Assembly (NCBI RefSeq): GCF_000931935.2
Contig: NZ_AZAC01000029.1
Coordinates: forward strand, 62,001-126,000
DNA from: Dethiosulfatarculus sandiegensis
GTDB taxonomy: Bacteria; Desulfobacterota; Desulfarculia; Desulfarculales; Desulfarculaceae
Direction of reading: 5' to 3'
Length of the DNA: 64,000 nt
The notes under the pieces were generated by a model. It had not been told where the DNA came from. It made no database searches and saw only the letters and a program-made list of their open reading frames with translations. The position numbers and the translations under genes are program-made. This document shows positions 8,497 through 28,128 of this stretch, one piece after another (positions within the stretch are counted from its first letter, which is position 1; every line of letters begins with the position of its first letter).

Positions 8497-8524
8497 TTTG
8501 CGTACCTTTTGCTTGGTAGTTAAA

Positions 8525-8603
8525 CAAACGTTTGAGAATCAGAGTCTAGAAGTTAAACAAACGTTTGTCAAGTTTTTAGCTGGAAAAATTAAACAAACGT
8601 TTG
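8525..8603. promoter_or_regulatory. three identical TetR-type operator palindromes
   Basis: CAAACGTTTG occurs at 8525-8534, 8558-8567 and 8594-8603. On the minus strand each copy is followed by TTTAA, so the shared unit is CAAACGTTTGTTTAA. Start-to-start spacing is 33 and 36 bases, close to three and three and a half DNA turns. One copy lies just after the predicted start of transcription, one in the -35/-10 spacer and one upstream. They sit directly in front of a TetR-family gene, the usual place for autoregulatory operators. Confidence 0.85.
8543..8571 (-). promoter_or_regulatory. sigma-70-like promoter of the TetR gene
   Basis: On the minus strand TTGACA (8571-8566), a 17-base spacer and TAGACT (8548-8543) are followed by an expected start near 8536. 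The middle CAAACGTTTG copy overlaps the -35 edge and spacer, and the first copy sits at about +2 to +11, so repressor binding would block RNA polymerase. Confidence 0.75.
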
Positions 8604-8849
8604 ATGGTGTTGTTTGTAAGGCCGCCTTGCTCTGTGAAAACAATTAGATAAGCGATGTATAAGGATTAACTAATAACAGGTGATTGCTGTTGGGTGATTC
8701 CCGGCTGATTTGGTTTTTTTTACTCGGGAGAGTTTAAAAAAGGAAGTTGCCCGTAGACAGTGCTTTTCCGGAACAGGTCTTGGCTAAAACGGAATGACTT
8801 ATTTGAATATTAAGCAGGGGAAAGCCTTGGAAGGGCTTTCCCCGGAAGA

Positions 8850-9050
8850 TTACTTCAATATCTCCAGAGCTTTACGTAAGGCGTCAGTGCCCTGCGAGGT
8901 AAGCTCGGCAGCTTTGCGCACCATGTCGCCACATTCCTTTTTGCCCTCTTTGTCCAGCTGGTCGGCAAAAAGTTCGTATTCCTCCTGATGGTGCTCGTTA
9001 TGGTGAATCCAATGGTCCAGTCTGATAAGGGCCTTTTCCAGTGTATCCAT
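8850..9050 (-). CDS. small helical protein with a His/Glu-rich segment
   Basis: A 66-aa protein with a good start: GGAGG lies about 9 bases before the ATG. It is predicted to be almost all helix and carries DHWIHHNEHHQEEYE at about residues 12-26. Five of those residues are histidines mixed with acidic residues, a plausible metal-binding face. One Cys is present (KKECGDM). It resembles short uncharacterised His-containing proteins I have seen in sulfate reducers, but I cannot name the family with confidence. It is monocistronic. Confidence 0.7.
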   Translation of the reverse strand: MDTLEKALIRLDHWIHHNEHHQEEYELFADQLDKEGKKECGDMVRKAAELTSQGTDALRKALEILK

Positions 9051-9203
9051 TGATGTCAGCCTCCTTTTGGCGGCCTTTCAGTTGGCCGCAACGCTTATAG
9101 AGGTGGGATTCTCCCCCCGGGTAGTCAGGCTTTCCGGCCCGGATTAAGTTGTTCTAAGAAAAAGGGGCGTTCGACTTCCAGCAGGTGATTTCTGCTCTTA
9201 AGT

Positions 9204-10121
9204 CTATTCAGCCCAATAGCCCTGGCGCTCTTGCACCAGTGATTCCATCAATTCTTTGATGTCTCTCTTTTGTTCTTCATTTATACCTGTAAAGCGCAGA
9301 CAGGTAAAACGAGCTTGATCACCGCCTTGCGGGTCAAATTCGCCCCACCGTACCACAATACCTTCCAGTGATATATCTTTTTGTCCCATATTCAAGGCGA
9401 TTTTCAGGCGGGAGGCTACGGGGAATTCCCATTGATCGGTATGCACGAACCTGATGCCTCCCATGGAAAAATCCACGGTAGAGGCCTGAAGCGGGGCCTG
9501 TCCGGTCTTGAGTTCTTCCAGAAGGTGGTTGAAAGATTCGGTGAATTCCTTGATCAAAAGCGGCTCCCCCTTGGTGCCGGCCATCAGGCGGGTCCGCATC
9601 CCTTGGGAAAAACGGTCAACCAGGCCGTTTACCAGTTCTTGGCGGTTGACGGGGGCAATGAATACGGGAAGATTGTCACCGGTGGTTATGCGTACATGCA
9701 TGCGCAGATCAGTCTCTGTGAGCTCCGTGGGCCCTGGAACCAAAAGCGATTCCATAAAGCCGTATTCACCTTGAGGTCTTTTGCTTATTCCACTTAGCAC
9801 GGTTTTATATCCTGTACGTAACCAGCATGGGCCTTCTTGCCGGTCCAATGCAAACAGAAAAGTAACTTTGAGTGGTTTCCCTACTTGTTTTTCAGTCAAA
9901 GAGGGCCTGGTCTGGGCTAGGCAAAGGGTCCCGTCGGGATAGATTTTTTGCAGCTCAGATGCCCTGATGTCATGGGAGGCGCCGCTTTCATCACCAAGCA
10001 CAATATCCACTCTAACCCCTGGTCGAAGGCTTTGAGTTTTTAAGTCTGATGAGTTAGTGCTTGTGTGCGGGTCAATGCTTTTTGCGCGCAGAGCGCTGAA
10101 TGAACTCATTGAATGCGGCAT
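9204..10121 (-). CDS. PilZ-domain c-di-GMP-binding protein, YcgR-like
   Basis: A 305-aa cytoplasmic protein. Residues about 30-135 look like a YcgR-type N-terminal beta domain (RPGVRVDIVLGDESG), and the C-terminal part is PilZ-like. Both c-di-GMP-binding motifs can be read: RxxxR as RMHVR near residue 137 and DxSxxG as DFSMGG near residue 225. An unusually long insert of about 80 residues, containing a helical stretch (VNRQELVNGLVDRFSQGM), separates the two motifs. The start could be ATG 10121 (AGGA close upstream) or ATG 10109. Role: an effector reading c-di-GMP for motility or surface behaviour; the partner is unknown. Confidence 0.8.
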   Translation of the reverse strand: MPHSMSSFSALRAKSIDPHTSTNSSDLKTQSLRPGVRVDIVLGDESGASHDIRASELQKIYPDGTLCLAQTRPSLTEKQVGKPLKVTFLFALDRQEGPCWLRTGYKTVLSGISKRPQGEYGFMESLLVPGPTELTETDLRMHVRITTGDNLPVFIAPVNRQELVNGLVDRFSQGMRTRLMAGTKGEPLLIKEFTESFNHLLEELKTGQAPLQASTVDFSMGGIRFVHTDQWEFPVASRLKIALNMGQKDISLEGIVVRWGEFDPQGGDQARFTCLRFTGINEEQKRDIKELMESLVQERQGYWAE

Positions 10122-13947: not shown

Positions 13948-14166
13948 GAGGAATATAAAAAATCCGGGTTACATTATTGTTCGCCTCTTTACAATTATCA
14001 GAAGGGTTTTACTGTTGTCATGATGTTGACAATTGAACAGGCTTAAACCTTACCCTAGCCTGATTTTACGTTTGACTCCACCCACCCTGGCTGATTTTTT
14101 CTTAAACTATTTACTGAACTATCTTAATTGAAAACTAGTTTTCATCGCTTTCTTTTTGAGGGCTTT

Positions 14167-15387
14167 ATGTTATCTTTTATTAGTGAAAGAGCTGATTCTG
14201 ATATTTTTCTGAAATTATCCGGGCGTAGAGTGATGAAAATACGGGTTGGTTTTACTTTTTTTGTTTTTTATATTTTAAGTGGTTTTTTGGGTGTTTTTTG
14301 CGCCAACCTTCCGCCCGGCAATCTTACCGTAATTTGGTTGCCTGCGGGCATAGCCTTGGCCTTATTATTAAAAACAGGGGCCAAGGGATTGCCTTGGATC
14401 TTCATAGGCTCCTATCTGATAAATACCCCGTTTTTAATCAAAAATTACAATATGCTCGATGCCGTGAGACCTCTTTTGGCCGGTCTGTTTCTGGCGGGCG
14501 CGGATACTTTACAGGGGTATTTGGCCTTTAAAATATTCAAGCATTTAAAACTTTTGAATCCCTTTACCAGCGGCAGAGAAGTTTTGCGTTTCTTCTTTAT
14601 GGTGGCTTTTTTACCCTGTGCCTCAACCACCTGGATTTTGGTTGTTGTTCTTCATCTTTTTGGCATTTGCCATGAGCATGCAGCCGCCCATTTTTTTAAC
14701 CGCTCGGCTGTATTGGCATTGGCGGACACCCTTGGCATATCATTGGCCCTTCCTATTTATTTTTCATGTAAAGGGAAGGGGCTGCGCGCAATTTTGCGAA
14801 CCACCGATAAAAAGTTCTACGCCTGTCTGGGATTGCTGCTTTTTTTTCTTTTCGCAAGCAACGCCTGGCTGGGAGAAGTTCGTTTTTTAATTTTTCCCCT
14901 GTTGTTATATGTGGTCATTACCATGGACCTGAAGGCCATATCTGTCAGTCTTTTAATAACTGCGTTTTACAGCATTTGCGCCACAGCCATGGGATACGGC
15001 CCTTATGTGGGGGAATCAACCCTGGAATCATACACCACCATGGTGGCGCTGCTATTGTGCCTTTTCCTGGCTTTTATGTATACCCAGGGTCTTTTGAGCG
15101 AGCTGAAAAAAGAGCAAAGGCTTTTGGAAGGAAAGGTGCTGCAACGCACCAGGGATCTTGAGCAGTCCAACAGACGCTTGAACAAGACCTTGGAAGAGGT
15201 GAAAACCTTAAGCGGAATTTTACCCATCTGCGCCAACTGTCATAAAATCAGGGATGATAAAGGATATTGGCAAAGGGTTGAGTCTTATCTTGCCAAGCAC
15301 TCAGACGCCCAGTTTAGCCATGGCCTGTGCCCGGATTGCGCCAGAAAGTTATATCCAGACATGTTTGACGATGAAGACCTTGAGTAG
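14167..15387 (+). CDS. MASE1-type membrane sensor with a C-terminal Cys-rich (CxxC...CxxC) domain
   Basis: The ATG at 14167 has GAGGG 5 bases upstream (406 aa). Residues about 22-310 form eight to ten membrane segments with MASE1 features (NLTVIWLPAGIALALLL; ADTLGISLALPIYFS). A short coiled coil follows (SELKKEQRLLEGKV, about 318-350). The C-terminus at about 353-395 reads LSGILPICANCHKIRDDKGY, then ESYLAKHSDAQFSHGLCPDC, two CxxC pairs. I have seen this tail after PAS or receiver domains in Deltaproteobacteria. There is no kinase, GGDEF or EAL domain, so the usual output module is missing. Function unknown; possibly a metal- or redox-sensing output. Confidence 0.75.
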   Translation: MLSFISERADSDIFLKLSGRRVMKIRVGFTFFVFYILSGFLGVFCANLPPGNLTVIWLPAGIALALLLKTGAKGLPWIFIGSYLINTPFLIKNYNMLDAVRPLLAGLFLAGADTLQGYLAFKIFKHLKLLNPFTSGREVLRFFFMVAFLPCASTTWILVVVLHLFGICHEHAAAHFFNRSAVLALADTLGISLALPIYFSCKGKGLRAILRTTDKKFYACLGLLLFFLFASNAWLGEVRFLIFPLLLYVVITMDLKAISVSLLITAFYSICATAMGYGPYVGESTLESYTTMVALLLCLFLAFMYTQGLLSELKKEQRLLEGKVLQRTRDLEQSNRRLNKTLEEVKTLSGILPICANCHKIRDDKGYWQRVESYLAKHSDAQFSHGLCPDCARKLYPDMFDDEDLE

Positions 15388-15459: not shown

Positions 15460-16764
15460 TTATTGGTTCATTTTTCTTTTGCCGCCTGTCCTTTGCAGGG
15501 CGGTTTTCACATCGAGTTTGACCTCCCAAAAAGCCAAACCGCCCGCTCGCAGGGCCCTTGTCAGTGAGGGCAGGGCCTTGAGTTTGTGGCGCGCCTGTTG
15601 GATCAGGGTTTTATCCGAGGCGTCAAGTGCATACAACGTAATTAAGAGGCCTGGCCCCTCGGAGGTTCTACTATGGGAATAGGACGCATCCAACAGGTAG
15701 GGCAGGCTGAAAAGGGCCTCATCCAGGTCGGCCGGGTTGAGCGTTTCTCCCTGGTCAAGGGGAATAAGAGACCCAATGCGCCCTTTGATTTTGCTCAACC
15801 GTTTAAGCCTGCTGCCGCAGGGGCAGGGCAGAGGCGGAAATGCGGCCAGGTCTTTCGTACGGTAGCGGATAAGAGGCATGCCCTTTCTGGTAAGGGTGGT
15901 GAAGACCACCTCACCGGTCTCTCCAGGCTCAAGGGATGCATCGGTTTTCGGGTCAATCACTTCAAAATAAAAATCCGCCTCGCGCAGGTGATAGCCGGTT
16001 TTCGCTTTGCACTCCACCGCCCCGCCCAGCCCCATTTCGGTCATGCCGTAGTGGTCGAACACCTCGCATCCCAAACTTTTTTCTATAGTCCTTACCAGGG
16101 ATACAGGGGAGCGGTCCGCACTTAAAAGCACCTTTTTAACCGTTCCCTGCGGCAGGTCATTCAGACGGGCCAGGGTAAGCAGGTCTAGAGGAGTTCCCAC
16201 CAGGACCTCGGGCTTAAGTTCCTTTATTCCGGCCAAGGCGGCGATCGGGTCTTTGACAAAGCCATATTGAAAAGGCCTGGCCTTGATCCCCCAAAGCGCC
16301 TTTTCCAGAAGATCCCCCACACTACCCGGAGTATTCCCCGGCATGAGGATCAGCACCTTGTCTCCGGGTTCGGTAAAAGTGCTCATGCCCCGGCCAAAGA
16401 AATCCACAGTGCGCTTGAGGTCTTCTTCCGTGAAATAAAGCCGTTTGGCCCGGCCGGTGGTGCCGGAGGTGGGCAGAGTCACCACTCGGCTGAAATCGCT
16501 TTGGGAAAGGCAAAGGAGATCAAGGCCCTTGGCAGACAGATCCTGCGGCCGGGTAAAGGGCAGCCTTTCAAGATCAGCCGGACTGTTAAGGGAGAGACGT
16601 GAGGCGCCTCCAAGGTGCTTTCGGTAAAAAGGGCTGTTGGCGGCCGCCCAGGCCAGGGTCTGGTTCAACCTGGAAAGTTGATAACTCTCCAATAACTCGC
16701 GATCCAGCCTACCGGGTTTCCCGCTGATCCTGGCTTGAGTCCAGCTGTCCAAGGGCGTGATCAA
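15460..16764 (-). CDS. AMP-dependent CoA ligase (PaaK-like; DVU_1553-type)
   Basis: A 434-aa adenylate-forming enzyme, close to phenylacetate-CoA ligase in length and layout. Motifs: TLPTSGTTGRAKRLYFTEED (ATP-binding loop), DHYGMTEMG, LEPGETGEVVFTTL, LIRYRTKDLA, and a C-terminal LQRTGGKRKMN holding the likely catalytic lysine. A cysteine pair (PCPCGSRLKRL) is usual in this group. It is the last gene of the aldehyde-oxidoreductase operon, 7 bases after the radical SAM stop; the start is TTG 16764 with AAAGG upstream. The acid it activates is unknown. I recall this neighbourhood as DVU_1551-1559 of Desulfovibrio vulgaris, from memory only. Confidence 0.85.
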   Translation of the reverse strand: MITPLDSWTQARISGKPGRLDRELLESYQLSRLNQTLAWAAANSPFYRKHLGGASRLSLNSPADLERLPFTRPQDLSAKGLDLLCLSQSDFSRVVTLPTSGTTGRAKRLYFTEEDLKRTVDFFGRGMSTFTEPGDKVLILMPGNTPGSVGDLLEKALWGIKARPFQYGFVKDPIAALAGIKELKPEVLVGTPLDLLTLARLNDLPQGTVKKVLLSADRSPVSLVRTIEKSLGCEVFDHYGMTEMGLGGAVECKAKTGYHLREADFYFEVIDPKTDASLEPGETGEVVFTTLTRKGMPLIRYRTKDLAAFPPLPCPCGSRLKRLSKIKGRIGSLIPLDQGETLNPADLDEALFSLPYLLDASYSHSRTSEGPGLLITLYALDASDKTLIQQARHKLKALPSLTRALRAGGLAFWEVKLDVKTALQRTGGKRKMNQ

Positions 16765-16771
16765 AAAAAGC

Positions 16772-18148
16772 CTAAACCTTTCTGTACAGGGTCTTTCCCC
16801 GGATGTCCGTCAGATTGTAAAGGCAAAAGGGTATCAGCCTTTTATCTGGTGAAACCACATGGATACAGCAGTCCTTCACCCTTTCCAGGTCCAGGTTCCA
16901 GGCATCCTGAAAAGCCATGGCTGAGACAGTAAAGGTGTTTGTGCGGGCCATGCCCAGAAAATCGTCGAAACTTAAGTAATTCTGCACCTGGCTGCAACCG
17001 CATGCCCCCTGCGCAGGGGCGGACCACCTTTCAGCCACCAGGTCAACCGAACGCTGGGCCCCCAGGGCCGCCACTTCGGGTTCAGACTGACTGCAATTGC
17101 ATTGCCCGGTTTCCCCTCCCAGTCGGGTGAGGCTTTGGGAGCCTGTTTTTACATAGGCCGCGCTAAAGGAGCAGAGCGCGTTTTCACAGCCCGGAGGATG
17201 AAAATCCGTGATCTTTAATAGCCCTTTGGTCTGTTCATAAAGGCCCTGCATGATCTCCGGCAGGGTCAGGCGATCCCTGTCTGAAGGATCATGGGGAAAG
17301 CGGCCGAAATAGCTGACGGGTTGAAAATGCACTCCCCTTATGCCCGGGGCCAGGTCTAAGGCGAGTTCCATGATTTTCCCCAAGTCGTTTGTATTGATCC
17401 CGGGAATCAGGGTGGGCACCAAGACCACACCCAAACCGGCCTGTACGCTGTTTTCAATGGCCTTGAGTTTGATCCTGAGCAGATCCGCTCCCCTTATTTT
17501 GCGTTGGATTTTATCTGAGCATCCATCGAATTGCAGAAAGACGGAGGCCAGGCCTGCCTGTCGCAGTTCCTGCGCGTATCCCGGCCGTTGCCCCAGCTTT
17601 ATGCCGTTGGTGTTCAGCTGCACAAAGGAAAAGCCCTGGTTGCGCACCATTTCTATGATGGCGCTGAGATCCTTTCTCATGGTGGGCTCTCCGCCGGAGA
17701 GTTGAATGTTGCGGGGGCCGCTGGCCTGCATTACCGCCCGGCACCAGCCCATAATTTCTTTCAGCTCGGGATCGGGCAGGCTTTTTTTATCGGAAGAGGC
17801 AAAACAGACCGGACAGCCCAGGTCGCAGTTCTGGGTTATCTCCATAAGCGCGGTGCAGGTATGTTGCCTGTGTTCCGGGCATAGGCCGCAGTCAAAGGGA
17901 CAGCCCCGGTTGTAATCGGTTGCGGGATTTTGGGGGTAAGAGGGGATTTTGGGGCGCACCCAGGAGGTGAACTCCGGTTCACCCCGCCAGATCACAGTGC
18001 TGAAAACACCGTGCTCGGGACATTGTTTTTCCAGAAAAATTTCATTTCCCTTCAGGACCCTTTGGGCCTTGAGCAGGCGGAAGCAAACCGGGCAAAGACT
18101 CTGGGTTTGGGAGAGGATGCCGCCAGCGGTTATTTTGTTATTCGGCAT
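16772..18148 (-). CDS. trsS: radical SAM protein of the TrsS type (Tes/MJ0619-like)
   Basis: A 458-aa protein. An N-terminal zinc-ribbon-like part (LCPVCFRLL, QCPEHGVF, GCPFDCGLCPEHRQHTC) precedes the radical SAM site CDLGCPVC (CxxxCxxC) at about residue 110. The SAM-binding LSGGEPTMRKDL follows. Further cysteine groups lie toward the C-terminus (CENALC, CNC, CGC, DCCIH...LIPFC), enough for at least one extra Fe-S cluster. This resembles Tes/MJ0619-type enzymes, which act on unactivated C-H bonds. The family has selenoprotein members; here no in-frame TGA interrupts the gene. The ATG lies 11 bases inside the upstream gene with no clear ribosome site, so translation is probably coupled. Substrate unknown. 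Confidence 0.85.
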   Translation of the reverse strand: MPNNKITAGGILSQTQSLCPVCFRLLKAQRVLKGNEIFLEKQCPEHGVFSTVIWRGEPEFTSWVRPKIPSYPQNPATDYNRGCPFDCGLCPEHRQHTCTALMEITQNCDLGCPVCFASSDKKSLPDPELKEIMGWCRAVMQASGPRNIQLSGGEPTMRKDLSAIIEMVRNQGFSFVQLNTNGIKLGQRPGYAQELRQAGLASVFLQFDGCSDKIQRKIRGADLLRIKLKAIENSVQAGLGVVLVPTLIPGINTNDLGKIMELALDLAPGIRGVHFQPVSYFGRFPHDPSDRDRLTLPEIMQGLYEQTKGLLKITDFHPPGCENALCSFSAAYVKTGSQSLTRLGGETGQCNCSQSEPEVAALGAQRSVDLVAERWSAPAQGACGCSQVQNYLSFDDFLGMARTNTFTVSAMAFQDAWNLDLERVKDCCIHVVSPDKRLIPFCLYNLTDIRGKTLYRKV

Positions 18149-18584
18149 GGGGATCAATACCGTTCATTTCAAGAATTTCCATTACCTTGGAAAAGGTTTC
18201 AGCCACTATCTGACCACAGGCCTGCATCTTAGGCCCGGCTCCTTGCCGGTTATCCGTGATTTCCGCGCAGGTCACGCCGTCTTTATCTTTTGCGATTTTT
18301 TCCTTGAACCACAGGTTAAGCTGTTCCAGCATAAGGGGCAGTCTTTCATTTGCCTGTTCATTATCTTGGCCTTTGCCTGCGTAAAGTCCCAGCACGCAGG
18401 CTCCCCCTGTCAAGGCCCCGCAGGTTCCGCTTCCCTGGCCCAGGCCATAGGCAAGTCCCGAGAGCGCCTTGATCATCTGAGGATTTTCCCGCCCCCTTTG
18501 TTCAAGGGCCAGGAGCATGATTATCTGGGCGCAGGTATAGCCTTTTGCGGCCAGGGTTATCATTTCAAACATGGGGTCTGCCAT
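18138..18584 (-). CDS. C-GCAxxG-C-C family redox protein (DVU_1555-type)
   Basis: A 148-aa small cytoplasmic protein with the family pattern: an early Cys (GYTCAQIIMLLALEQ), GSGTCGALTGGACVLGLYAG, then single Cys residues at DGVTCAEI and MQACGQIV. Family members are thought to bind an Fe-S cluster or take part in electron transfer, but few are characterised. The ATG at 18584 has AAGGGGG upstream; a GTG at 18590 is the alternative. The upstream methyltransferase stop lies at this junction and the radical SAM gene starts inside its last codons, so it is tightly coupled to both. Confidence 0.85.
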   Translation of the reverse strand: MADPMFEMITLAAKGYTCAQIIMLLALEQRGRENPQMIKALSGLAYGLGQGSGTCGALTGGACVLGLYAGKGQDNEQANERLPLMLEQLNLWFKEKIAKDKDGVTCAEITDNRQGAGPKMQACGQIVAETFSKVMEILEMNGIDPHAE

Positions 18585-18586
18585 TT

Positions 18587-19312
18587 TCACCCCCTTGGTT
18601 TTGTTACTGGTTTTGCGATCATGAGGTGAAATCCCGGTTTGGCTTTTTTGATTTGGTCCTTGGCCTTTGGTTCTTCATTACTGAGAGCCAGGTCCCAAAA
18701 GGCGTTCATGGACCCGCATTCAAAGATCAATCTGGCTCCCAACTCGGCCAAAAGCCTGGAGTGGTCCTCATATCTGACCAGCTCAAAGCCCGTTTTCCTA
18801 AGGCGTTCCTGTCCGTTTTGGGGAGTCACCGCCCTGGTGAAACAACATTGTAAACTCAAGTTTTTGATTTCCGGTCCGGGATTATCAAGATGGAGATCCA
18901 TAATCAAAAGGAAGCCTGTGGGCTTTAGCACCCTGTGAAATTCAAGCAGGGCTTTTTCCGGGTCCTCGATCAGGCTTAAGACGCACTGGCAAAGGACCCC
19001 TTTAAGGGAATTGGCCTTTATGGGGAGGATTCTGCGGGCATTGGCTTGTATAAGAAAAAGGCCTGGATCCTGGGCTCTTGCCTGCTCAAGGTAATCAAGT
19101 CCCATATCCAGCCCCACTCCGGTCAAGGAAAATTCCCTGGTCAGAAGCCTTAAGGTGCTGCCTGTGCCGCAACCCACATCCAGGATTTTGTCCTGGGGCT
19201 TAAAACCGCAAAAAGAAAGGGCGTGGCGGGTCAACTCCGGGGTGCAGGGGCTCAGCCAGGGATGGGCCGCCTTTCTGAGGCAGGGCAGGCGATGCAGGGC
19301 AAAAGGGGGCAC
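18587..19312 (-). CDS. SAM-dependent methyltransferase (DVU_1556-type)
   Basis: A 241-aa class I methyltransferase. I place the start at GTG 19312: GGAGG lies 8 bases upstream, inside the previous gene, and its G is shared with that gene's TAG stop. The protein begins VPPFALHRLPCLRKAAHPW. SAM motif I is ILDVGCGTGSTLRLL, followed by an acidic residue near GVGLDMGLDYLEQA, and LDPEKALLEF-type motifs continue in VLKPTGFLLIMDLHLDN. Substrate unknown; the neighbours suggest it modifies the same molecule as the radical SAM protein and the ligase. A longer upstream frame to 19399 exists but overlaps the redox gene and lacks a ribosome site. Confidence 0.85.
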   Translation of the reverse strand: MPPFALHRLPCLRKAAHPWLSPCTPELTRHALSFCGFKPQDKILDVGCGTGSTLRLLTREFSLTGVGLDMGLDYLEQARAQDPGLFLIQANARRILPIKANSLKGVLCQCVLSLIEDPEKALLEFHRVLKPTGFLLIMDLHLDNPGPEIKNLSLQCCFTRAVTPQNGQERLRKTGFELVRYEDHSRLLAELGARLIFECGSMNAFWDLALSNEEPKAKDQIKKAKPGFHLMIAKPVTKPRG

Positions 19313-19524
19313 TATTTGTCCTCCAGAAGTTTTTCCACTTCCTGCATTTTGCCCCGGGCCAGGTCTTCCGGTATCAAGGTCAGGCCGCAGTTCGGACAAC
19401 AGGGCAACTCCACCTTAAAACGGCTGCCCATGTACTCAAGTTCCACATTTTTTAACTCAAGGGCCTTGCCGCACGCCGCGCAGGTCCAGGCCAGGTCCTT
19501 TTCCGTGGCATAAAGTCCGGCCAT
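19312..19524 (-). CDS. small zinc-ribbon / redox protein (DVU_1557-type)
   Basis: A 70-aa protein with two cysteine pairs, WTCAACGKALEL and LPCCPNCGLTLIPED, spaced like a zinc ribbon or rubredoxin-like site, then a short acidic helix. AAGGGGAG lies just before the ATG, and the previous stop TAA abuts the start. The stop overlaps the methyltransferase GTG by one base. It may carry electrons or a metal for the operon's enzymes. The family is known to me only as an uncharacterised companion of this gene set. Confidence 0.8.
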   Translation of the reverse strand: MAGLYATEKDLAWTCAACGKALELKNVELEYMGSRFKVELPCCPNCGLTLIPEDLARGKMQEVEKLLEDK

Positions 19525-21834
19525 TTAGACTCCCCTTTCAACGATGCTCATGCGATGGCAATAGGCATTGAAGATCTTAAACCCTGCGCCTTCCGGTAAA
19601 TATTCAACCCAAAAAGTAACATTAAGGGGTTTGAACCCGGCGAGAAGATGCCCGCTTTCCTGGTGCTTCAGCACCTGGCCGGTTTTTTCGGCGTTTAAAA
19701 GCACTTGTTTGACGTCCTGGTCCAGAATGCGCCTTTGGTCCAGTTTTTGCCTTACATCAGGAGCCATGGTTATCTCTATTTTTTGCCAATCCGCCATTTG
19801 TGGTCCGCTTTCATGCCAAAGTTCAGCCAGGATAAGGTTTTTTAGTTTGGCCCGGTTCTCCTGCCTGGCCGACCAGCCGGGCCAGGGCCTGGCAAAGGGG
19901 TCTCCTTCCGTGGCCCGGGAAAACAAAAGTTCCAGTATATGAGCCGTGGGTTTGCCGGTTGCGGCCAGGTTATCCCTGCACATGGCGCAGTAGGTGACAA
20001 AATCCAGTTTGCTTTGGCTTGCCCTTTGTTCACTTGTTTTTTGGGCCAGGGAAGGATTGGCGCTTTGCATCAATCCACCAAAGCCGCAGCATTGGGTGTA
20101 CTCGCCGCTCATCTCAAGTTCCCGGATTTTGAACCCGGCCTGGTCAAGAAGTTTTCTTACAGAATGCCTTAATTCCCGCATGTCCCTTGCGGTGCAGGGA
20201 TCATGCAGGGCTAGGTGTGCATCCTGCCTTTTCAGCGGGTTTGGCGGCGGCTCATTTTGGAGCATGATTTCCCAAAGGGAGACTATCTTGGCTTGGCGAA
20301 GCCCTTTGGGCAGGGTCTGGCTGCAGGTGGGACAGGCGGTTATCAAAGAAGGTTCGCCCAATTCCCGCCAGGTTTTTAGCCTTTGATCGGCATCGTTTTC
20401 AAATTTTTCTGTTCGCCCGGCCCAATGAGCGGGTGCTCCGCAACAGCCCAGCCACAGCCCCACTTCTCCGGGAAAAATTTGGCTTAAAAATTCATAGGCC
20501 GCCTTTACGGCCAGGGGGTTGGAGGCTGCCAACTGACAGCCCGGGAAAAATACATAAGTGCTGGTTTGGGCTCCCGGGTGATGCCTCACCAAAGAACAGC
20601 CATCGCTGTTGGCCTGATCCATGTCCAGCAAGGCGAATTCATGGGCCGAAGGAGGCATTTTGCCCTTTTTCACCATGGCCTGCCTGGCCCTGATGATGAT
20701 TTCGGCCATGGGAAATTCAGTGGGGCAAACCTTGGTGCAAAGCTCACACAAGGCGCAGGAGTTGATAAGGGTGTTGGCCTGGTGCTGGCCCATTACAATG
20801 GAATCGTTATTATAGATTTCCCTTAAATATTTTTTGGGATACGAGCCGAATTCCTTGAGAAAAAGACAGGATTTTACACACTCCAGGCATTGGCAGTCCA
20901 GGCAGCGGCCCGCCTCCCTTTTTGCGCCTTGCTCGTCTGTGATCTCCTGTTCCTTAACCAGGGCAGGCTTGTTTTCCTTAATCACCCTGGTCAGATTGGT
21001 GTAGAGCCTGGTTGGTATGGGACCTTGCCCGGAACGTCCGGCTGTGAGCGACACCTTTTGGGCATGCCGATCCAAGGAAACCGCGGCCCATCTTCCTTGA
21101 GCCGCCCTGAATATAAACGATTCATGATCACCTCCCGCAAACACTCCCGACTGTGTGGTGGCCCGGGTGAGCTGATCTGTGATCAGGCCGGTCTCCCGAA
21201 AAAGGTCTGCGCCCCAATCTTTCGGGTCGGATGAATCCAGGCCCAGGAAAACACCCTTGTGTTCAGTTGAAAGGCTCTGCAGGATTTCAGGCCCGGCCTG
21301 GCCCTGATCAATATGCGTGACCAGCCCCAGGCTGTTCAGGTTGTCGAGTTCATTTTCCAGGTATTGTTTCGGAAGCAGCGTCTGCTCCAGGCTGCGCAGA
21401 TAAGGGGCAATCCGGGGGCCGGGTTCATAGAGGTGCACTTCATAGCCCTTGATCAGAAGATCCCAGGCGGCACAAAGGCTGGATATCCCGCTGCCCCATA
21501 TGGCCAGGGAGAGTCCCTTATCCGGCAGTTTTGTCGGCGGACCGGTCCGGGGCAGGTTCTGAACCAGGTAGCGTTCCAATTTGCCAATGGCCAGGGGACT
21601 GTCCATTTCTTTGCGCAGGCAATTTTCACGGCAGGGCTCTTCGCAGATGAGCCCCAAAATCCCCGTCAAGGGCAGGGTCCGTTTTAAAAGGGCGTAGGCC
21701 TTGTCCCAATAACCCCTGGTTATGTTTTGTAAAAGTCCTCGGGCATCTACATGCAGGGGACAGGCGGCCTGACATTTGGGCGGCTCATCCTGAATGCAGA
21801 CACTTTCCAGTTGCTTTAGTTCTTTTTGCTCCAT
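19525..21834 (-). CDS. FAD/NAD- and dicluster-binding oxidoreductase with CCG domains (DVU_1558-type)
   Basis: A 769-aa protein with several modules. Residues about 20-80 hold a GltD-like Fe-S domain (CQAACPLHVDARG, CEEPCRENC). At about 108 comes a nucleotide-binding fold (LAIWGSGISSLCAAWDLL, third Gly replaced by Ser). Two ferredoxin-type clusters are at about 305 (CLDCQCLECVKSC) and 350 (CALCELCTKVCP). HdrB-like CCG domains at about 420-640 carry FFPGCQLA, WLGCCGAP, DPCTARD, CCGFGG and CAMC. The C-terminal 110 residues are unassigned. It looks like an electron-transfer hub taking electrons from, or giving them to, the aldehyde oxidoreductase encoded before it. The ribosome site is weak. Confidence 0.85.
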   Translation of the reverse strand: MEQKELKQLESVCIQDEPPKCQAACPLHVDARGLLQNITRGYWDKAYALLKRTLPLTGILGLICEEPCRENCLRKEMDSPLAIGKLERYLVQNLPRTGPPTKLPDKGLSLAIWGSGISSLCAAWDLLIKGYEVHLYEPGPRIAPYLRSLEQTLLPKQYLENELDNLNSLGLVTHIDQGQAGPEILQSLSTEHKGVFLGLDSSDPKDWGADLFRETGLITDQLTRATTQSGVFAGGDHESFIFRAAQGRWAAVSLDRHAQKVSLTAGRSGQGPIPTRLYTNLTRVIKENKPALVKEQEITDEQGAKREAGRCLDCQCLECVKSCLFLKEFGSYPKKYLREIYNNDSIVMGQHQANTLINSCALCELCTKVCPTEFPMAEIIIRARQAMVKKGKMPPSAHEFALLDMDQANSDGCSLVRHHPGAQTSTYVFFPGCQLAASNPLAVKAAYEFLSQIFPGEVGLWLGCCGAPAHWAGRTEKFENDADQRLKTWRELGEPSLITACPTCSQTLPKGLRQAKIVSLWEIMLQNEPPPNPLKRQDAHLALHDPCTARDMRELRHSVRKLLDQAGFKIRELEMSGEYTQCCGFGGLMQSANPSLAQKTSEQRASQSKLDFVTYCAMCRDNLAATGKPTAHILELLFSRATEGDPFARPWPGWSARQENRAKLKNLILAELWHESGPQMADWQKIEITMAPDVRQKLDQRRILDQDVKQVLLNAEKTGQVLKHQESGHLLAGFKPLNVTFWVEYLPEGAGFKIFNAYCHRMSIVERGV

Positions 21835-21907
21835 GTTTTGGAGACCTTGGAGTTAGTGATTTTTGCCCATGGCTTAGTCAAAGGCAAAAAGGTTTGCGGA
21901 ATAAATA

Positions 21908-21936
21908 CCCCTTACCCGGTGGACCGGGTAAGGGGG
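21908..21936 (-). other. intercistronic hairpin after the aldehyde oxidoreductase gene
   Basis: A 12-bp stem (CCCCTTACCCGG with CCGGGTAAGGGG) and a 4-base loop lie 22-50 bases downstream of the aldehyde oxidoreductase stop. Only a weak AT-rich stretch follows on the minus strand, so partial termination or 3'-end protection of the first cistron is likelier than full termination. Confidence 0.65.
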
Positions 21937-21957
21937 TTGTAAAAGCTTTCAAAAGTT

Positions 21958-24675
21958 TTATTTGGGCATCGCGGCCAGCACTTTTTCAGGCCTGGCAGGC
22001 AGTCTCTTGATTCTGGCCCCGCAGGCGTTGTAAATGGCGTTCGATATGGAGGCGTGGGGGCTGGTCAGCGGCAACTCGCCCACTCCGGCCGCGCCAAAGG
22101 GGCCGTCTTTCCTGGGAGTCTCCACATAGATAATTTCCATGTCGTCGGGTATGTCCTTGATGTAGGGAAGGCCCGCGCCCATAAGGGTGGAGTGCTTTTT
22201 GATATCCTCGAAATCCTCGGTCAGGGCCAGGCCGATGCCCTGGGCCAGGCCGCCGTAGATCTGGCCGTCCACAACCAGCTTGTTGTTGATTTTGCCAACG
22301 TCGGCCACTAAGGTCATTTTTTCAACCGTGGTTTTGCCCGTAGCTGTTTCCACTGCAACTTCGGCCATAAAGATGCCGTACATATATACGCTGAAGGGAC
22401 TGCCCTGACCGTTTTCATCGCAGTTGGTGGCCGGGGCGGTCCACTGACCCGTGATTTTGACCTCCAAGCCCGCTTTTTGCATTTCCTCATAGGAGCGGTA
22501 ACCGCCTTCGGGTTTGGCCATGGCCTCAAGCAGTTTTTCGCAGGCAACCTGAATGGCCTTGCCGGTCATGACCTGGGAGCGACTGCCGCCGGCAGGCCCT
22601 GAGTTGGGGGCCCGGCTGGTGTCGTTCATGACCAGGTTGATTTGTTCCGGAGCCAGGTTCAGTGGGCGCAGGGCTTGATGGGCTGTGCCGAGAACACCGG
22701 CGTCGGCGCCCTGTCCGTGGTCCTCCCAGCAGGAATAGATGGTCACCGTGTTGTCCGGCATAAGCTCGGCCCAGGCTTCGGAAGCGTCTGGTCCGTCCAA
22801 GCCGCAGCCATAGATGCCGATGGAGACCCCCACCCCGCGCTTGACGTCCTCGGTTGAATTCTCCTTGGCATTTTTAAGGGCATCCTGGTATTTGGGCCGC
22901 AATTTATCCACCATTTCCGGCAGGGAATAGACCTCCGGCTCTTGGCCGGTGGGGGTGGTGGAACCCTTGCGGTAAACGTTTTGATAGCGCAGCTCCAAGG
23001 GGTCCTGGCCCAGTTTTTCAGCCAGCTCATCCATTAAGACTTCAGAGGCAAACTCGCTTTGAGGGGCGCCGTAACCCCGGAAGGCCGAACCCCAGGCGTG
23101 GTTGGTGCAGACAGTGCGGCCCTTGCCCCGGATGGCCGGAATATCATAGCCTGCGCCGATAAATTGGGCGCCCCTTAAGGTGAGCAGATCTCCGAACTCG
23201 GAGTAGGGGCCGTGGTCCACTGACCAGTCGCTTTCCATGGCCAAAAGTTTGCCGTTTTCATCGCTGGCAAAACGCACCTTCATAAAGAAGGGTGAGCGCT
23301 TGCCGGTATAGGTCATCTGTTGCCGATAGCTGTAAAGCAGGGAAACCGGCTTGCCGGTGGCCAGGCAGGCCACGCCCAAAAGCGCCTCCATGGTGGGGCT
23401 GAACTTGTAGCCAAAGGTGCCGCCTGCCATGCTCTGCACCATGATCAGGTCTTCCAACTCCACGCCGATGCCCGGAGCTATCATGGCCTGGTGCAGGTGA
23501 AGGCCAATGGATTTGGAATGGATGTGGAGCTTGCCGTCGCCATCCTGATAGGCGAAACCCACGTCCGGCTCCATGGGCATGTGGGGCTGACGGCCTACAT
23601 AAAAATCACCTTCAATTACATTGGCCGCATTGTCAAAGATGGGAGCGGTATCCTCGCCCTTGGCCAGGTTCTGCTCGTAGTAGATGTTCGGGGTTCCGGG
23701 ATGGATCTCCATGGCGTCTTCGGCCATGGCCTCAGGCGCACTCATATAGGCCGGAAGCTCTTCCAGCTCAACCTTGACCTTTTCCGCGGCGGCCAGGGCC
23801 TGGTCCCTGGTGTCGGCGCAGACTATGGCCAGGGCGTCTCCGTATTGGAAAACCTTTTCCTCGCAAAGAATGGGACGGTCCCAGCCGTCGCCCTTGTTGT
23901 CCGGGAAGGTGATAAGGCCTGTTATGCGGTTTTTGCCTTTTACATCCTTGGCTGTCACCACTTTTTGCACTCCGGGCATGGCCTCTGCCTCGGAGGTGTC
24001 AATGGCGAGGATATTGGCGTGGGAAACCTCGGCCTGGACCAGGGCCAGGGAAAGGGCGTCCGGCGGCAGTTTCAGGCTGGAGTCGGCTCCGTAGTCGCAG
24101 GTGCCGTTTGCCTTGGCCAGGGCGCTGGGCCTGGGGATTTCACCTCCCCAGATAACACCGTCGTCAGGCAGTTTGTATTCCAGGTCGCTCGCCGCTTCTT
24201 CGCCTCTCACGACCTTGGCCGCCTCAATGACCGCGTCCACAATGGGTTTGTAGCCGGTGCAGCGGCAGGCGTTTCTGTGTTTCTGGAACCAGTCCCTCAC
24301 CTCTTCCCGGGAGGGATTGTCGTTTTGGTCCAAAAGGCCCTTGGCGCTGACAATAAAGCCGGGTGAACAGTAGCCGCACTGGGCCGCCCCGTGTTTCATC
24401 CAAGAGGACTGAAGGGGATGGGGCCCATCTTCGTGAGCTATGCCTTCAATGGTTGTGATGTCAGCCATATCGCTGACCTTGTCCATTTTAGTCACACAGG
24501 AGCGCACCACCTTGCCGTCCATGAGAACGCTGCAGCAGCCACACTGACCCTGGCCACAGCCGATTTTGGTGCCGGTGAGAAGAAGCTGTTCGCGCAGGAC
24601 ATTTACCAGCGGGGTCTTGGGATTTGCTATAACTTCGGTCGGTTTTTGGTTTATGATCAGCTTTTTTTTCAGCAT
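21958..24675 (-). CDS. mop: molybdopterin-dependent aldehyde oxidoreductase (Mop, xanthine oxidase family)
   Basis: The ATG at 24675 has AAGGAGG 8 bases upstream (905 aa). Two [2Fe-2S] domains: CGQGQCGCCSVLMDGKVVRSC-type cysteines starting at residue 40, then CGYCSPG and CRCTGY near 100-137. These positions coincide with those I recall for D. gigas Mop. The Mo domains follow, with RGYGAPQSEFASE and the catalytic glutamate in GVGELPLTSPH near the C-terminus. Mop oxidises aldehydes to carboxylic acids and passes electrons through its Fe-S clusters. There is no signal peptide, so it is cytoplasmic. It heads an operon that runs to 15460. Confidence 0.96.
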   Translation of the reverse strand: MLKKKLIINQKPTEVIANPKTPLVNVLREQLLLTGTKIGCGQGQCGCCSVLMDGKVVRSCVTKMDKVSDMADITTIEGIAHEDGPHPLQSSWMKHGAAQCGYCSPGFIVSAKGLLDQNDNPSREEVRDWFQKHRNACRCTGYKPIVDAVIEAAKVVRGEEAASDLEYKLPDDGVIWGGEIPRPSALAKANGTCDYGADSSLKLPPDALSLALVQAEVSHANILAIDTSEAEAMPGVQKVVTAKDVKGKNRITGLITFPDNKGDGWDRPILCEEKVFQYGDALAIVCADTRDQALAAAEKVKVELEELPAYMSAPEAMAEDAMEIHPGTPNIYYEQNLAKGEDTAPIFDNAANVIEGDFYVGRQPHMPMEPDVGFAYQDGDGKLHIHSKSIGLHLHQAMIAPGIGVELEDLIMVQSMAGGTFGYKFSPTMEALLGVACLATGKPVSLLYSYRQQMTYTGKRSPFFMKVRFASDENGKLLAMESDWSVDHGPYSEFGDLLTLRGAQFIGAGYDIPAIRGKGRTVCTNHAWGSAFRGYGAPQSEFASEVLMDELAEKLGQDPLELRYQNVYRKGSTTPTGQEPEVYSLPEMVDKLRPKYQDALKNAKENSTEDVKRGVGVSIGIYGCGLDGPDASEAWAELMPDNTVTIYSCWEDHGQGADAGVLGTAHQALRPLNLAPEQINLVMNDTSRAPNSGPAGGSRSQVMTGKAIQVACEKLLEAMAKPEGGYRSYEEMQKAGLEVKITGQWTAPATNCDENGQGSPFSVYMYGIFMAEVAVETATGKTTVEKMTLVADVGKINNKLVVDGQIYGGLAQGIGLALTEDFEDIKKHSTLMGAGLPYIKDIPDDMEIIYVETPRKDGPFGAAGVGELPLTSPHASISNAIYNACGARIKRLPARPEKVLAAMPK

Positions 24676-24860
24676 ATCCAAATCCTCCTTGGCGCTTTCC
24701 GCCTCCAGCCCGATTTACGGCAAAGGCTTTTCATTATTTGGGCCGGGTAAAAATCTTTTTCCGTTTCAATCCAAATTTCTTTTGGTTTTTTTCTCGGGCA
24801 AAACGGTTCGGGAGCCTTGGGGCGGCTATCAGCCCCATTGGAAAGGGATATGGGACCGGC

Positions 24861-24940: not shown

Positions 24941-24978
24941 TGTCATAGATGACACAGATGGTTATGTCATTACTGACA
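24941..24978. promoter_or_regulatory. paired palindromes, probable regulator sites
   Basis: TGTCATAGATGACA (24941-24954) and TGTCATTACTGACA (24965-24978) share TGTCA-N4-TGACA, with centres 24 bases apart. They lie roughly 75-115 bases upstream of the candidate mop -10, a position suited to an activator. The regulator is unknown; a metal- or aldehyde-responsive one would fit. Confidence 0.65.
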
Positions 24979-25953: not shown

Positions 25954-26730
25954 TTAAGAATTGGCGTCGGCCCAGGGCAGCCGGTTTTTTTGGGCCGCGA
26001 ACCAGGCCGCGCCCAATGCGCCCACCATCTCCGGAGCCTCGGCTATCAGGCAATTATCACCTAACGCCAGATTGATAAGCTGAACCATACAGGGATTTTT
26101 GGCCACCCCGCCTGAGAAGGCCAGGGGCAATTTGAGCCCCACTCTTTTAAGCATGGCGAGTGAACGCTTGGCCACTGAGTTGTGCAGGGCCAGGGCGATA
26201 TCCTGAGGGCGCTTGCCCTGGGCCATCAGAGAAGTGGCCTCGCTTTCGGCAAAGACTGTGCACATGCTGTTCACAGTCACCCCCGGCCTGCCGTCCAGGG
26301 CATAATTGCCAAACTCGTCCAAAGACATTTCCATGCCGCGGGCCATGAATTCCAGGAATTTTCCGGTTCCCGCGGCACAACGGTCGTTCATCTCGAACTT
26401 CAGCAAATTTCCGTTTTCATCCAGGGTCAGGGCCTTGGTGTCCTGGCCTCCAATGTCCAATATGGAGCGACAGTCCGGAAAAAGCCTGCGTGCGCCCAGG
26501 GCATGTGCCTTTATTTCGCTTACAGTCAAGGCCTCATGATCCCGGCTGTAAAGTTTTCTTCCGTAACCGGTGACAGCCATCTCATCCCAAGACCTTCCCC
26601 GCAGAAGCTTATGACATTGGGACAGGGGATCAAAGGTAGTAGGCGTTTCTTGGCTGAAGATGATTTTCCCCTTTTCCAAAATGAGCAGCTCAATACTGCG
26701 TGAGCCGATATCCAGACCAGCGACCAACAT
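25954..26730 (-). CDS. ATP-dependent activase of the BcrAD/BadFG/HgdC type (double-cubane reductase activator)
   Basis: A 258-aa ASKHA-fold ATPase; the ATG at 26730 has GGGGAG 6 bases upstream. Motifs: GLDIGSRSIELLIL (phosphate 1), LDIGGQDTKALTL, RCAAGTGKFLEFMA with the cluster cysteine, SMCTVFAESEATSLMAQG with the second, and FSGGVAKNP. As in HgdC, a homodimer bridges one [4Fe-4S] cluster and uses ATP to inject a low-potential electron into its partner. The partner gene lies immediately upstream, so this is the dedicated reductase component. Confidence 0.93.
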   Translation of the reverse strand: MLVAGLDIGSRSIELLILEKGKIIFSQETPTTFDPLSQCHKLLRGRSWDEMAVTGYGRKLYSRDHEALTVSEIKAHALGARRLFPDCRSILDIGGQDTKALTLDENGNLLKFEMNDRCAAGTGKFLEFMARGMEMSLDEFGNYALDGRPGVTVNSMCTVFAESEATSLMAQGKRPQDIALALHNSVAKRSLAMLKRVGLKLPLAFSGGVAKNPCMVQLINLALGDNCLIAEAPEMVGALGAAWFAAQKNRLPWADANS

Positions 26731-26775
26731 TAGCATCTCCCCTGTATTGTCCCGTAGGGTCTATCAAACTTTTTT

Positions 26776-26850: not shown

Positions 26851-28128
26851 TCAGGCGATCATCTCCACAAAGGCTTCCACTCTGGTTCTCAGCTGTTCAA
26901 TGTCTTCCTGGCTGTAGTCGGTCTCAAGGCGCAGGGTTTTTATCTTTTCATTTTCCAGGCTTTTCTCCAGGGGAATGGATTCTGTCTGATAGGGCTGGCA
27001 GAACTGCAGGGAATAGTGGATCACGCCCTGGGCGTTGTATCTGCCGGTCATCTCCTTTACGTGGTCCAGCCGTTCCGGATTGGGGGTGAAGATGGCGCAG
27101 TCAATTTTGAAATAGCGGTCCACCAGGGCTTCCATGAGTTCATCCAGGCTTTCCTCGCCATCTGAAACCAGGTTTCTGGTGCCCCTTTCGCCCACACAGG
27201 ATTCTTCTCCCACGATCACCGCGCCGGTGGACTCTATGATCATTGGGAGTTTCCAGTTGGGAACCGCCATGGGACATCCAGAGACCATCACCCTTGGCGT
27301 GCCTTTGGCAAAAGCTCCCTTGCCTTCAGCCACTCGGGTCTCCAGTTCATCGCAGAGTTTGTTGAGCGAGGCGGTGAACCGCACAGGGTCGTCATAAAAC
27401 TGCACCTGGTTGATCAAAAGGGCGTCTAAGCCCGAGATGGGGGCGGGGTCGTTTTTTCGGAGTTCATTTAAGCGGTGCAGGGCTTTTCTCTTTTCAGTAA
27501 CCAGCTGGATGCCTTTTTTAAGCCGGGCCGCATCGATTGTAACGCCTGAGATTTCTTCCATTTTATGGAAAAAGCGTTTCATCTCCGCCTGCATGAGCTC
27601 TCTGGCCCTCAAGGATTTGGTCTGGGGCAGATCCATGACATAAAGAGCCGGGACCAAACCCGCCAGGGTTTCATAGGATTTCTTTTTGCCGTCGCAGGTG
27701 TTTTCCCCCACGATCAGGTCCGCACTCTCCAGGTAGGGGCAGACCTTGCCCAATTTAAAGCCAAAGGCGCTTTTGATAAGCGCACAGGTGTTTCTGGGCA
27801 GGATTTTGTCCACTTCTTCGGTGGCGAAATCCGCTCCCGTGCAGAGCCCCACCAGGATGCCGTCCACGGCCAGCACTATCTCTTCGGGAACAAAAACACA
27901 GAAGGAACCCACCACCTTTCGGCCCTCGGCTTTGGCGTCCATGAGTTCCTTGATGCGAAGCCCGTGCACCTCGCTCATCACAAAGTCAAAATAGGCCATC
28001 CCTTCCGGCCGGTTGGCCTGGCTCATGAAGACCTGTTCATAACCTTGTCCTAAAACCTCGAGTAGTTGATCGTGGGCCTGTAAATCCAGGCCCAGATCGG
28101 TCCACATCTGGGTGTAGTCGTTTTGCAT
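26851..28128 (-). CDS. double-cubane-cluster anaerobic reductase (2-hydroxyacyl-CoA dehydratase family)
   Basis: A 425-aa protein, the HgdB-fold subunit. Candidate cluster cysteines lie in VGSFCVFVPEEIVLAVDG, GLCTGADFAT, GENTCDGKKKSYE, SGCPMAVPNW, GEESCVGERGTR and LQFCQPYQTE, enough for a linked double [4Fe-4S] cluster. GENTCDGKKK and the FCQPY motif are typical of the double-cubane proteins described from Carboxydothermus rather than of true dehydratases. There is no second dehydratase subunit nearby. These enzymes reduce small molecules at very low potential (acetylene and hydrazine shown in vitro); the physiological substrate is not known. GAGGAGG precedes the ATG. Confidence 0.9.
   Translation of the reverse strand: MQNDYTQMWTDLGLDLQAHDQLLEVLGQGYEQVFMSQANRPEGMAYFDFVMSEVHGLRIKELMDAKAEGRKVVGSFCVFVPEEIVLAVDGILVGLCTGADFATEEVDKILPRNTCALIKSAFGFKLGKVCPYLESADLIVGENTCDGKKKSYETLAGLVPALYVMDLPQTKSLRARELMQAEMKRFFHKMEEISGVTIDAARLKKGIQLVTEKRKALHRLNELRKNDPAPISGLDALLINQVQFYDDPVRFTASLNKLCDELETRVAEGKGAFAKGTPRVMVSGCPMAVPNWKLPMIIESTGAVIVGEESCVGERGTRNLVSDGEESLDELMEALVDRYFKIDCAIFTPNPERLDHVKEMTGRYNAQGVIHYSLQFCQPYQTESIPLEKSLENEKIKTLRLETDYSQEDIEQLRTRVEAFVEMIA

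Follow-up and report, generated by a model that had tools for sequence, protein, structure and literature searches.

What joins the seven genes that follow one another on the minus strand of a 64,000-nucleotide stretch of the Dethiosulfatarculus sandiegensis genome (phylum Desulfobacterota; contig NZ_AZAC01000029.1, positions 62,001 to 126,000; hereafter the window), running from position 24675 to position 15460, and what do they do for the aldehyde oxidoreductase, Mop, that the first of them encodes? Our answer is tentative and stands a little below an even chance: the operon would consist of a client enzyme, Mop, and a portable maturation-and-redox module in which a small protein of the DUF7479 family acts as a modified carrier. 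We are confident of the layout beneath it, in which a core made up of the radical S-adenosylmethionine (SAM) protein TrsS, DUF7479, a ligase and a methyltransferase is combined with exchangeable clients. New here are the co-occurrence of core and clients, the exchange of clients, the EDK tail of DUF7479, the extra DUF7479 copies in client operons, the argument from Desulfovibrio gigas and the comparison of TrsS motifs with those of the tetraether lipid synthase Tes.

The initial annotation had described seven genes on one strand, in the order given here and tightly spaced, and the open reading frames (ORFs) and family assignments agree with it. Membership was judged by the bit score of each protein against the curated cut-off of its own dedicated NCBIfam family; 7/7 proteins exceed it, and the Pfam assignments are concordant. 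Mop (21958..24675; NF045668, 1677 bits, cut-off 1100) is a chain of two 2Fe-2S and molybdenum-cofactor domains (Pfam Fer2, Fer2_2, Ald_Xan_dh_C, MoCoBD_1/2) with no flavin adenine dinucleotide (FAD) domain, and it aligns over its full length with the solved enzymes of D. gigas and D. desulfuricans. Its start is better placed at the ATG at 24675, behind AAGGAGG, as the initial annotation had it, than at the mechanically called TTG at 24681. An intergenic space of 123 bp separates Mop from an FAD/Fe-S/CCG protein, here called diclust (19525..21834; NF045663, 990 bits, cut-off 530); the remaining five junctions measure 0-7 bp or overlap. Diclust, matched in Pfam by Fer4_20, Fer4_17 and two CCG domains, comprises a DPD-like Fe-S domain (Fer4_20), a degenerate FAD-type Rossmann part, a 4Fe-4S dicluster, two CCG domains of the HdrB/TfrB type and a C-terminal domain of about 90 residues (19528..19812) that is elsewhere free-standing or fused to DUF7479. 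The DUF7479 protein itself (19312..19524; NF045645, 100 bits, cut-off 60; Pfam PF24292) is 70 residues long; calling it a zinc ribbon holds for its CxxC...CxxC pattern and less firmly for the metal, which may be zinc or iron. Then come a class I SAM methyltransferase of the DVU_1556 family (18587..19399; NF045667, 210 bits, cut-off 155), whose real start probably lies downstream of 19399, a C-GCAxxG-C-C protein of the DVU_1555 family (18138..18590; NF045669, 174 bits, cut-off 103; Pfam C_GCAxxG_C_C), the Tes-related TrsS (16772..18157; NF045646, 665 bits, cut-off 490), with a probable start at the ATG at 18148, and a PaaK-like adenylate-forming ligase of the DVU_1553 family (15460..16764; NF045666, 453 bits, cut-off 300). 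Beyond the ligase lies a convergent gene on the plus strand (14128-15387), and an Rfam scan of the operon gave no match.

The seven families are catalogued as dedicated NCBIfam entries named after DVU_1553-1559 of D. vulgaris, and their joint function is undescribed; the papers that we found on the DVU_1551-1559 families give no function for the gene set, and the initial annotation had likewise named it as conserved and without a described function. Profile searches returned at least 570 TrsS relatives in genome contigs, and the best 80 belong mostly to Desulfobacterota, Chloroflexota (Anaerolineae) and Bacillota (Clostridium, Acetobacterium, Desulfosporosinus). Gene order was surveyed in 80 TrsS loci from named genomes and judged where the flanks were long enough; the order Mop, diclust, DUF7479, methyltransferase, C-GCAxxG-C-C protein, TrsS, ligase is kept in nearly all of them. 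Because each family lies above its cut-off and the same order recurs in relatives, chance can be excluded as the origin of the set.

Whether Mop is the centre of this set, as the initial annotation had it, can be read from phyletic distribution. Among 198 genomes of the phylum, TrsS occurs in 20 (19 above the cut-off and one split gene), and DUF7479 and the methyltransferase occur in the identical 20, the latter with 18 above the cut-off and two at 144-148 bits, the next match falling at 106. The ligase tally above cut-off is 21, one of them not listed, and the 20 listed genomes are again the TrsS set. Mop is present in 14 of these 20 (13 above the cut-off, and a further one whose gene is divided between two contigs), against 0 of the 178 others; a whole-genome search of the remaining six TrsS genomes gave no match to it. 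That all 14 Mop genomes should fall within the 20 has p ~4e-17 if genomes are independent, a value too small owing to their relatedness, although the pattern itself stays. In further genomes outside the 198, DUF7479 is found in 24/24 with TrsS and in 1/56 without it. The partners thus do not occur mostly apart from Mop, a possibility that the initial annotation had raised against itself; but since in this sample Mop never occurs without TrsS and six TrsS genomes have no Mop, we regard Mop as a client that depends on the module and the module as independent of Mop, and other redox enzymes stand beside several of the Mop-less sets (individual loci and genomes are cited below by L and G numbers).

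These other enzymes are of several kinds. Two Mop-less sets (L171, L149) adjoin BamB-type tungsten enzymes with Fe-S partners; HGD-D proteins and a BadF-type activase adjoin L053, L175 and a second set in L112; L176 and L177 lie next to genes for fumarate-reductase-like (Frd-like) flavoproteins, RACo and TRAP transporters, and L059 and L062 next to RACo and TRAP genes. Near the Mop-less sets L052, L055 and L063 there is no recognisable client. In Mop-less loci the CCG half and the 90-residue domain of diclust are separate ORFs. In the TrsS tree, the two BamB-linked proteins sit at separate positions inside the Mop-associated part, and the HGD-D, Frd/RACo and unlinked types group together on a separate branch (support 100/96). 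Hits to AFOR Pfam families had suggested that aldehyde oxidation might be the common theme, with a tungsten-type aldehyde oxidoreductase replacing Mop; this was dropped because the L171 and L149 enzymes match the benzoyl-coenzyme A (CoA) reductase BamB (815 and 1003 bits, respectively) far above aldehyde enzymes (~218).

DUF7479 is also found in client operons that lack TrsS. In the genome of L171, where the TrsS set found adjoins bamB, a second locus (L187) lacks TrsS, ligase and methyltransferase and reads Mop, diclust, DUF7479, XdhC and nucleoside triphosphate (NTP) transferase; L188 (G423) reads Mop, alcohol dehydrogenase, diclust, DUF7479, C-GCAxxG-C-C protein and ligase, without TrsS; and in L123 and L126 there are two paralogues of Mop, both accompanied by a DUF7479, and a single TrsS. 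These extra copies are what would be expected if every client had its own carrier and a single assembly set matured all of them in trans; they do not fit an electron donor dedicated to TrsS. The alcohol dehydrogenase of L188 (12229-13335) is a zinc enzyme encoded between Mop and diclust, which suggests that this Mop takes part in a route from alcohol to acid.

If DUF7479 is a carrier, where might its cargo sit? Across 105 aligned members, only the four cysteines and the terminal lysine never vary. Of 108 C-termini, 100 are exactly EDK and two are Glu-Glu-Lys. The six exceptions all belong to Mop-less sets and still have a lysine within the last three positions. The C-terminal helix of the window protein ends ...EVEKLLEDK, and the codon of its final residue, Lys70, the proposed attachment site, lies at 19315..19317. 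Two natural fusions place DUF7479 as the C-terminal part, behind diclust in L163 and behind the 90-residue domain in L149, and both chains end in EDK. The terminal lysine is probably important for function, and since the divergent members carry one or two residues after it, its side chain is more likely to be used than the terminal carboxylate. The predicted fold of DUF7479 is a four-cysteine hairpin followed by a helix; the L149 fusion was modelled with a predicted local distance difference test score (pLDDT) of 86.6 and a predicted template modelling score (pTM) of 0.80, and the lysine lies at the tip of the last helix, where model confidence drops. Compared with folds in the PDB, the fusion model gave no significant match (best E 0.1, a weak RelE-type similarity), and the DUF7479 profile found only generic zinc fingers among PDB sequences, together with a weak match to MasE, the small subunit of 1-methylalkyl succinate synthase (PDB 9o8u chain D; E 0.008), which is no better than the generic zinc fingers. 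Pfam shows no lipoyl domain in DUF7479.

The enzymes of the core could serve to assemble a group on such a carrier. In the adenylate-forming superfamily (ANL) to which the ligase belongs, the C-terminal subdomain is required for the thioester step. This subdomain is missing in 11 of 112 members of the ligase family, including the Desulfovibrio types of the phylum sample, which makes ordinary CoA ligation, and with it a plain CoA-ligase role for the DVU_1553 family, doubtful; we count it for the carrier model. The window ligase retains the subdomain, with 105 residues past R329. The methyltransferase family has five invariant residues, Pro51, Gly78, Gly80, Cys139 and Asp168, all intact in the window protein, which also carries Cys-Thr in place of the Gly52-Gly53 (N-terminal P-G-G motif) of nearly all relatives.

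TrsS is the member whose chemistry can be approached most closely, as its nearest solved structure is Tes (7tol, 430 bits). The ligands of Tes are C9-x2-C12-x20-C33-x2-H36, then C73, C77 and C80 with a histidine, the CxxxCxxC motif and the labile Met439 (PMC9433317). All four metal-site motifs are kept in the window TrsS, as a rubredoxin-type site (C22, C25, C46, H49), an N-cluster site (C86, C90, C93, H96), the radical SAM cluster (C111, C115, C118) and M414 of the C-cluster. By pattern, 112 of 112 TrsS proteins have the rubredoxin-type motif (with looser spacing), the N-cluster motif and an extra cysteine, Cys101, and Met414 is invariant in a 15-row alignment. TrsS differs from Tes in this invariant Cys101 and in its gene neighbours; the window protein scores 356 against NF045702, under the cut-off of 450, and by this membership test TrsS is not a Tes. 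The Tes intermediate has a carbon-sulfur bond to the C-terminal cluster (PMC9433317), from which we would guess, by analogy, that TrsS attaches sulfur or carbon to an unactivated carbon. A 2026 review lists TrsS merely as a radical SAM selenoprotein. Selenocysteine was tried as a pointer to a catalytic cysteine and abandoned, as an in-frame TGA occurs in 0 of 80 loci and further TrsS matches have no internal stop.

Put together, these parts suggest the following scheme. The ligase would convert an acid and ATP to an acyl-AMP and transfer the acyl group onto Lys70 of DUF7479. TrsS would then functionalise an unactivated C-H bond of the bound group by means of its auxiliary [4Fe-4S] cluster, through sulfur insertion or C-C coupling; homology supports the type of chemistry, and the substrate is deduced from the scheme. 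The methyltransferase, a clear member of its family, would finish the group with one methylation. The resulting redox-active arm, in this scheme probably thiol-based, would shuttle between the 2Fe-2S face of the client and the CCG centres of diclust, where the C-GCAxxG-C-C protein would be a thiol partner and, with the CCG centres, would handle a thiol/disulfide or similar group. In favour of this redox use, the operon encodes CCG domains whose nearest characterised relatives include the TfrB type. In this way the module could give the FAD-less Mop its electron acceptor and a link to cellular electron carriers. We give the covalent modification of DUF7479 by ligase and TrsS somewhat less than even chances; that the product is a new protein-bound redox prosthetic group on the C-terminal lysine, made by ligase, TrsS and methyltransferase and serving Mop, BamB-type, HGD-D-type and Frd-like enzymes in at least three phyla, is possible but still more tentative, and a thiol nature of the arm is, taken singly, doubtful.

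Several observations weigh against this scheme. The modification of DUF7479 is something that we infer from gene content and conservation. Its tail could instead be a docking element, because the entire helix, GKMxEVEKxLEDK, is conserved across the family and not the lysine alone. Even adenylation by the ligase is an assumption of the scheme, given that an obvious GK motif near the C-terminus is absent from most members and the subdomain from some. CCG domains also occur in proteins without thiol substrates, such as LdhH and GlpC. One genome, G519 (L186), has Mop, diclust, DUF7479, methyltransferase, C-GCAxxG-C-C protein and ligase, and TrsS went undetected in it, perhaps because the draft is incomplete. 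Finally, the Mop of D. gigas can pass electrons to flavodoxin in vitro without the module (PMC10223205).

The same gene content can be read as a catabolic pathway, in which ligase, TrsS and methyltransferase would take a free aromatic or fatty acid as substrate, C-H activation would lead to an aldehyde for Mop, and the electrons would go to the CCG protein; in other loci BamB or HGD-D would supply alternative ring-reducing or dehydrating steps. PaaK-like ligases are an aryl-acid ligase family, enzymes of the BamB and HGD-D/BadF kinds are familiar from the breakdown of aromatic compounds, some Mop-less sets lie next to TRAP transporters, and the alcohol dehydrogenase of L188 would suit such a route. 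The clients, however, are too diverse for a single pathway (Mop, BamB, HGD-D, Frd-like), and the ligases that lack the thioester-step subdomain, the invariant terminal lysine and the extra DUF7479 copies beside clients are left without explanation. The proposal in the initial annotation, degradation through an aldehyde to an acyl-CoA, is of this kind and keeps a small share of the probability, with the same observations unaccounted for; we consider a catabolic role unlikely.

We are similarly sceptical of a second alternative, in which DUF7479 would carry electrons in the manner of rubredoxin and dock through its tail, and the clients would use a diffusible small molecule or lipid produced by TrsS, ligase and methyltransferase. 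A small CxxC...CxxC protein that NCBI names a "redox protein" lends itself to this, TrsS itself has a rubredoxin-type site, and the conserved C-terminal helix could be an interface. Yet a carrier for TrsS should track TrsS, whereas the extra DUF7479 copies track clients without it, and a docking helix needs no absolutely fixed residue at the chain end, which both fusions leave free. A small protein with a strictly conserved C-terminus, encoded alongside a radical SAM enzyme, also recalls the ribosomal peptides from which pyrroloquinoline quinone (PQQ) and mycofactocin are made, and the tail might likewise be turned into a small cofactor and cleaved. This we hold to be very improbable, as there is no conserved peptidase among the listed neighbours, the divergent members extend one or two residues past the lysine, and the four-cysteine domain is as well conserved as the tail.

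An alteration of Mop's molybdenum cofactor by the module, one form of the modified cofactor proposed in the initial annotation, is highly improbable. An XdhC-like factor, a DVU_1551 NTP transferase and a molybdopterin-binding protein do adjoin the set in many relatives. The D. gigas Mop, however, was solved at 1.28 A with the ordinary molybdopterin cytosine dinucleotide (MCD) and two 2Fe-2S centres (PMC10223205), and the Mop of G281 is 100% identical to that crystallised enzyme (PDB 1sij, 1vlb) over the 392 residues compared. G281 carries the complete set (L162), including a DUF7479 ending in EDK, so a modified molybdenum cofactor is unlikely; the set is also found in Mop-less genomes and next to BamB, HGD-D and Frd-like enzymes, and this explanation was rejected. 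The "Aor" of a D. vulgaris fitness paper is the tungsten enzyme DVU1179 and not DVU1559. The remaining alternative, that TrsS makes membrane-spanning or ether lipids like Tes, has the Tes match and the presence of all compared metal-ligand motifs behind it and is nevertheless scarcely credible, for Tyr459, fixed in 1,000 archaeal homologues of Tes (PMC9433317), is never Tyr among 103 readable TrsS members (mostly Val, Thr, Ile or Gln; Val in the window), other bacterial Tes-like proteins lie on separate branches, and the set holds no lipid enzyme, the ligase possibly excepted. Those Tes-like radical SAM proteins (L064-L075) come from the same phylum, branch apart from TrsS in the tree and lack its partners, except for a CCG protein beside L074.

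The surroundings of the operon differ somewhat from those of its relatives. The commonest neighbours after the seven genes are the XdhC-like maturation factor (NF045664), the MocA-like DVU_1551 NTP transferase (NF045665), a histidine phosphatase, a molybdopterin-binding protein and a sigma-54 activator. The first two are real neighbours in related loci, as accessory genes present in many relatives, but they are absent from the window, and none of the other three adjoins the window operon. Of 67 regions upstream of Mop, 10 carry a promoter of the TGGCAC-N5-TTGC type, where shuffled sequences give 0.2 on average. The window operon has two palindromes, TGTCA-N4-TGACA, 24 nt apart and 5' of Mop (24941..24978); these are the only two copies in the 64-kilobase window, where 0.04 would be expected, and the pair is a probable operator. 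One similar palindrome lies upstream of Mop in L112. Between Mop and diclust, a G+C-rich hairpin of 12 pairs with a T-rich tail (21908..21935, minus strand) is the strongest stem in the region and a possible attenuator, although pattern scans of this sort yield many chance matches. Two further minus-strand genes lie upstream of Mop, namely a BadF/HgdC-type activase at a distance of 1.3 kb (25954..26736; TIGR00241, 197 bits) and an anaerobic reductase of the HGD-D family containing a double-cubane cluster (26851..28128; NF040772, 466 bits). Such genes adjoin TrsS sets in L053, L175 and L112, and in the window the pair may be a second associated redox module or client, a link drawn from proximity only. 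Some relatives have extra genes within the set: the D. gigas locus L162 has a nitroreductase-family gene (9418-10071) between Mop and diclust, and L169 has genes for a cysteine-desulfurase-family protein and a 97-residue protein (8118-9529) between TrsS and the C-GCAxxG-C-C gene, a hint that this single locus may encode a donor of sulfur or selenium.

How, then, does the proposed client-and-carrier system compare with what is known? The D. gigas aldehyde oxidoreductase, the first crystal structure in the xanthine-oxidase family, is an orthologue of the window Mop, and its own operon carries the conserved module. It has been studied in isolation: the review of the enzyme mentions no operon or gene cluster, and it names flavodoxin, in place of the missing FAD domain, as no more than a putative partner (PMC10223205). 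Diclust is a candidate electron partner of Mop whose genetic standing is equal to or better than that of flavodoxin. No Mop genome in the sample lacks the module, which also stands beside other enzymes where Mop is missing; if DUF7479 is a modified carrier, it would bring a new protein-bound cofactor and a substrate for TrsS, a bacterial relative of Tes.

The closest working precedent, by analogy and with unrelated parts, is the sLpl(AB)-LipS1/LipS2-LbpA system, which assembles lipoate in sulfur oxidisers together with an Hdr-like complex (PMC10332631, PMC6067878). The proposed system would share with it a ligase and a radical SAM enzyme dedicated to a small carrier protein whose lysine is fixed, a single assembly set, and the placement of the carrier near CCG redox proteins. 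In the window, however, the carrier is DUF7479, which has no lipoyl domain, the ligase is PaaK-like and not LplA-like, the radical SAM protein is Tes-like and not LipS1/LipS2 or LipA, a methyltransferase is added, and the client is Mop or another enzyme; the locus is not a lipoate system. A further likeness, by description alone, is to the amino-group carrier LysW, another small four-cysteine protein with a functional fixed C-terminus, which ends in glutamate instead of lysine and has no radical SAM partner.

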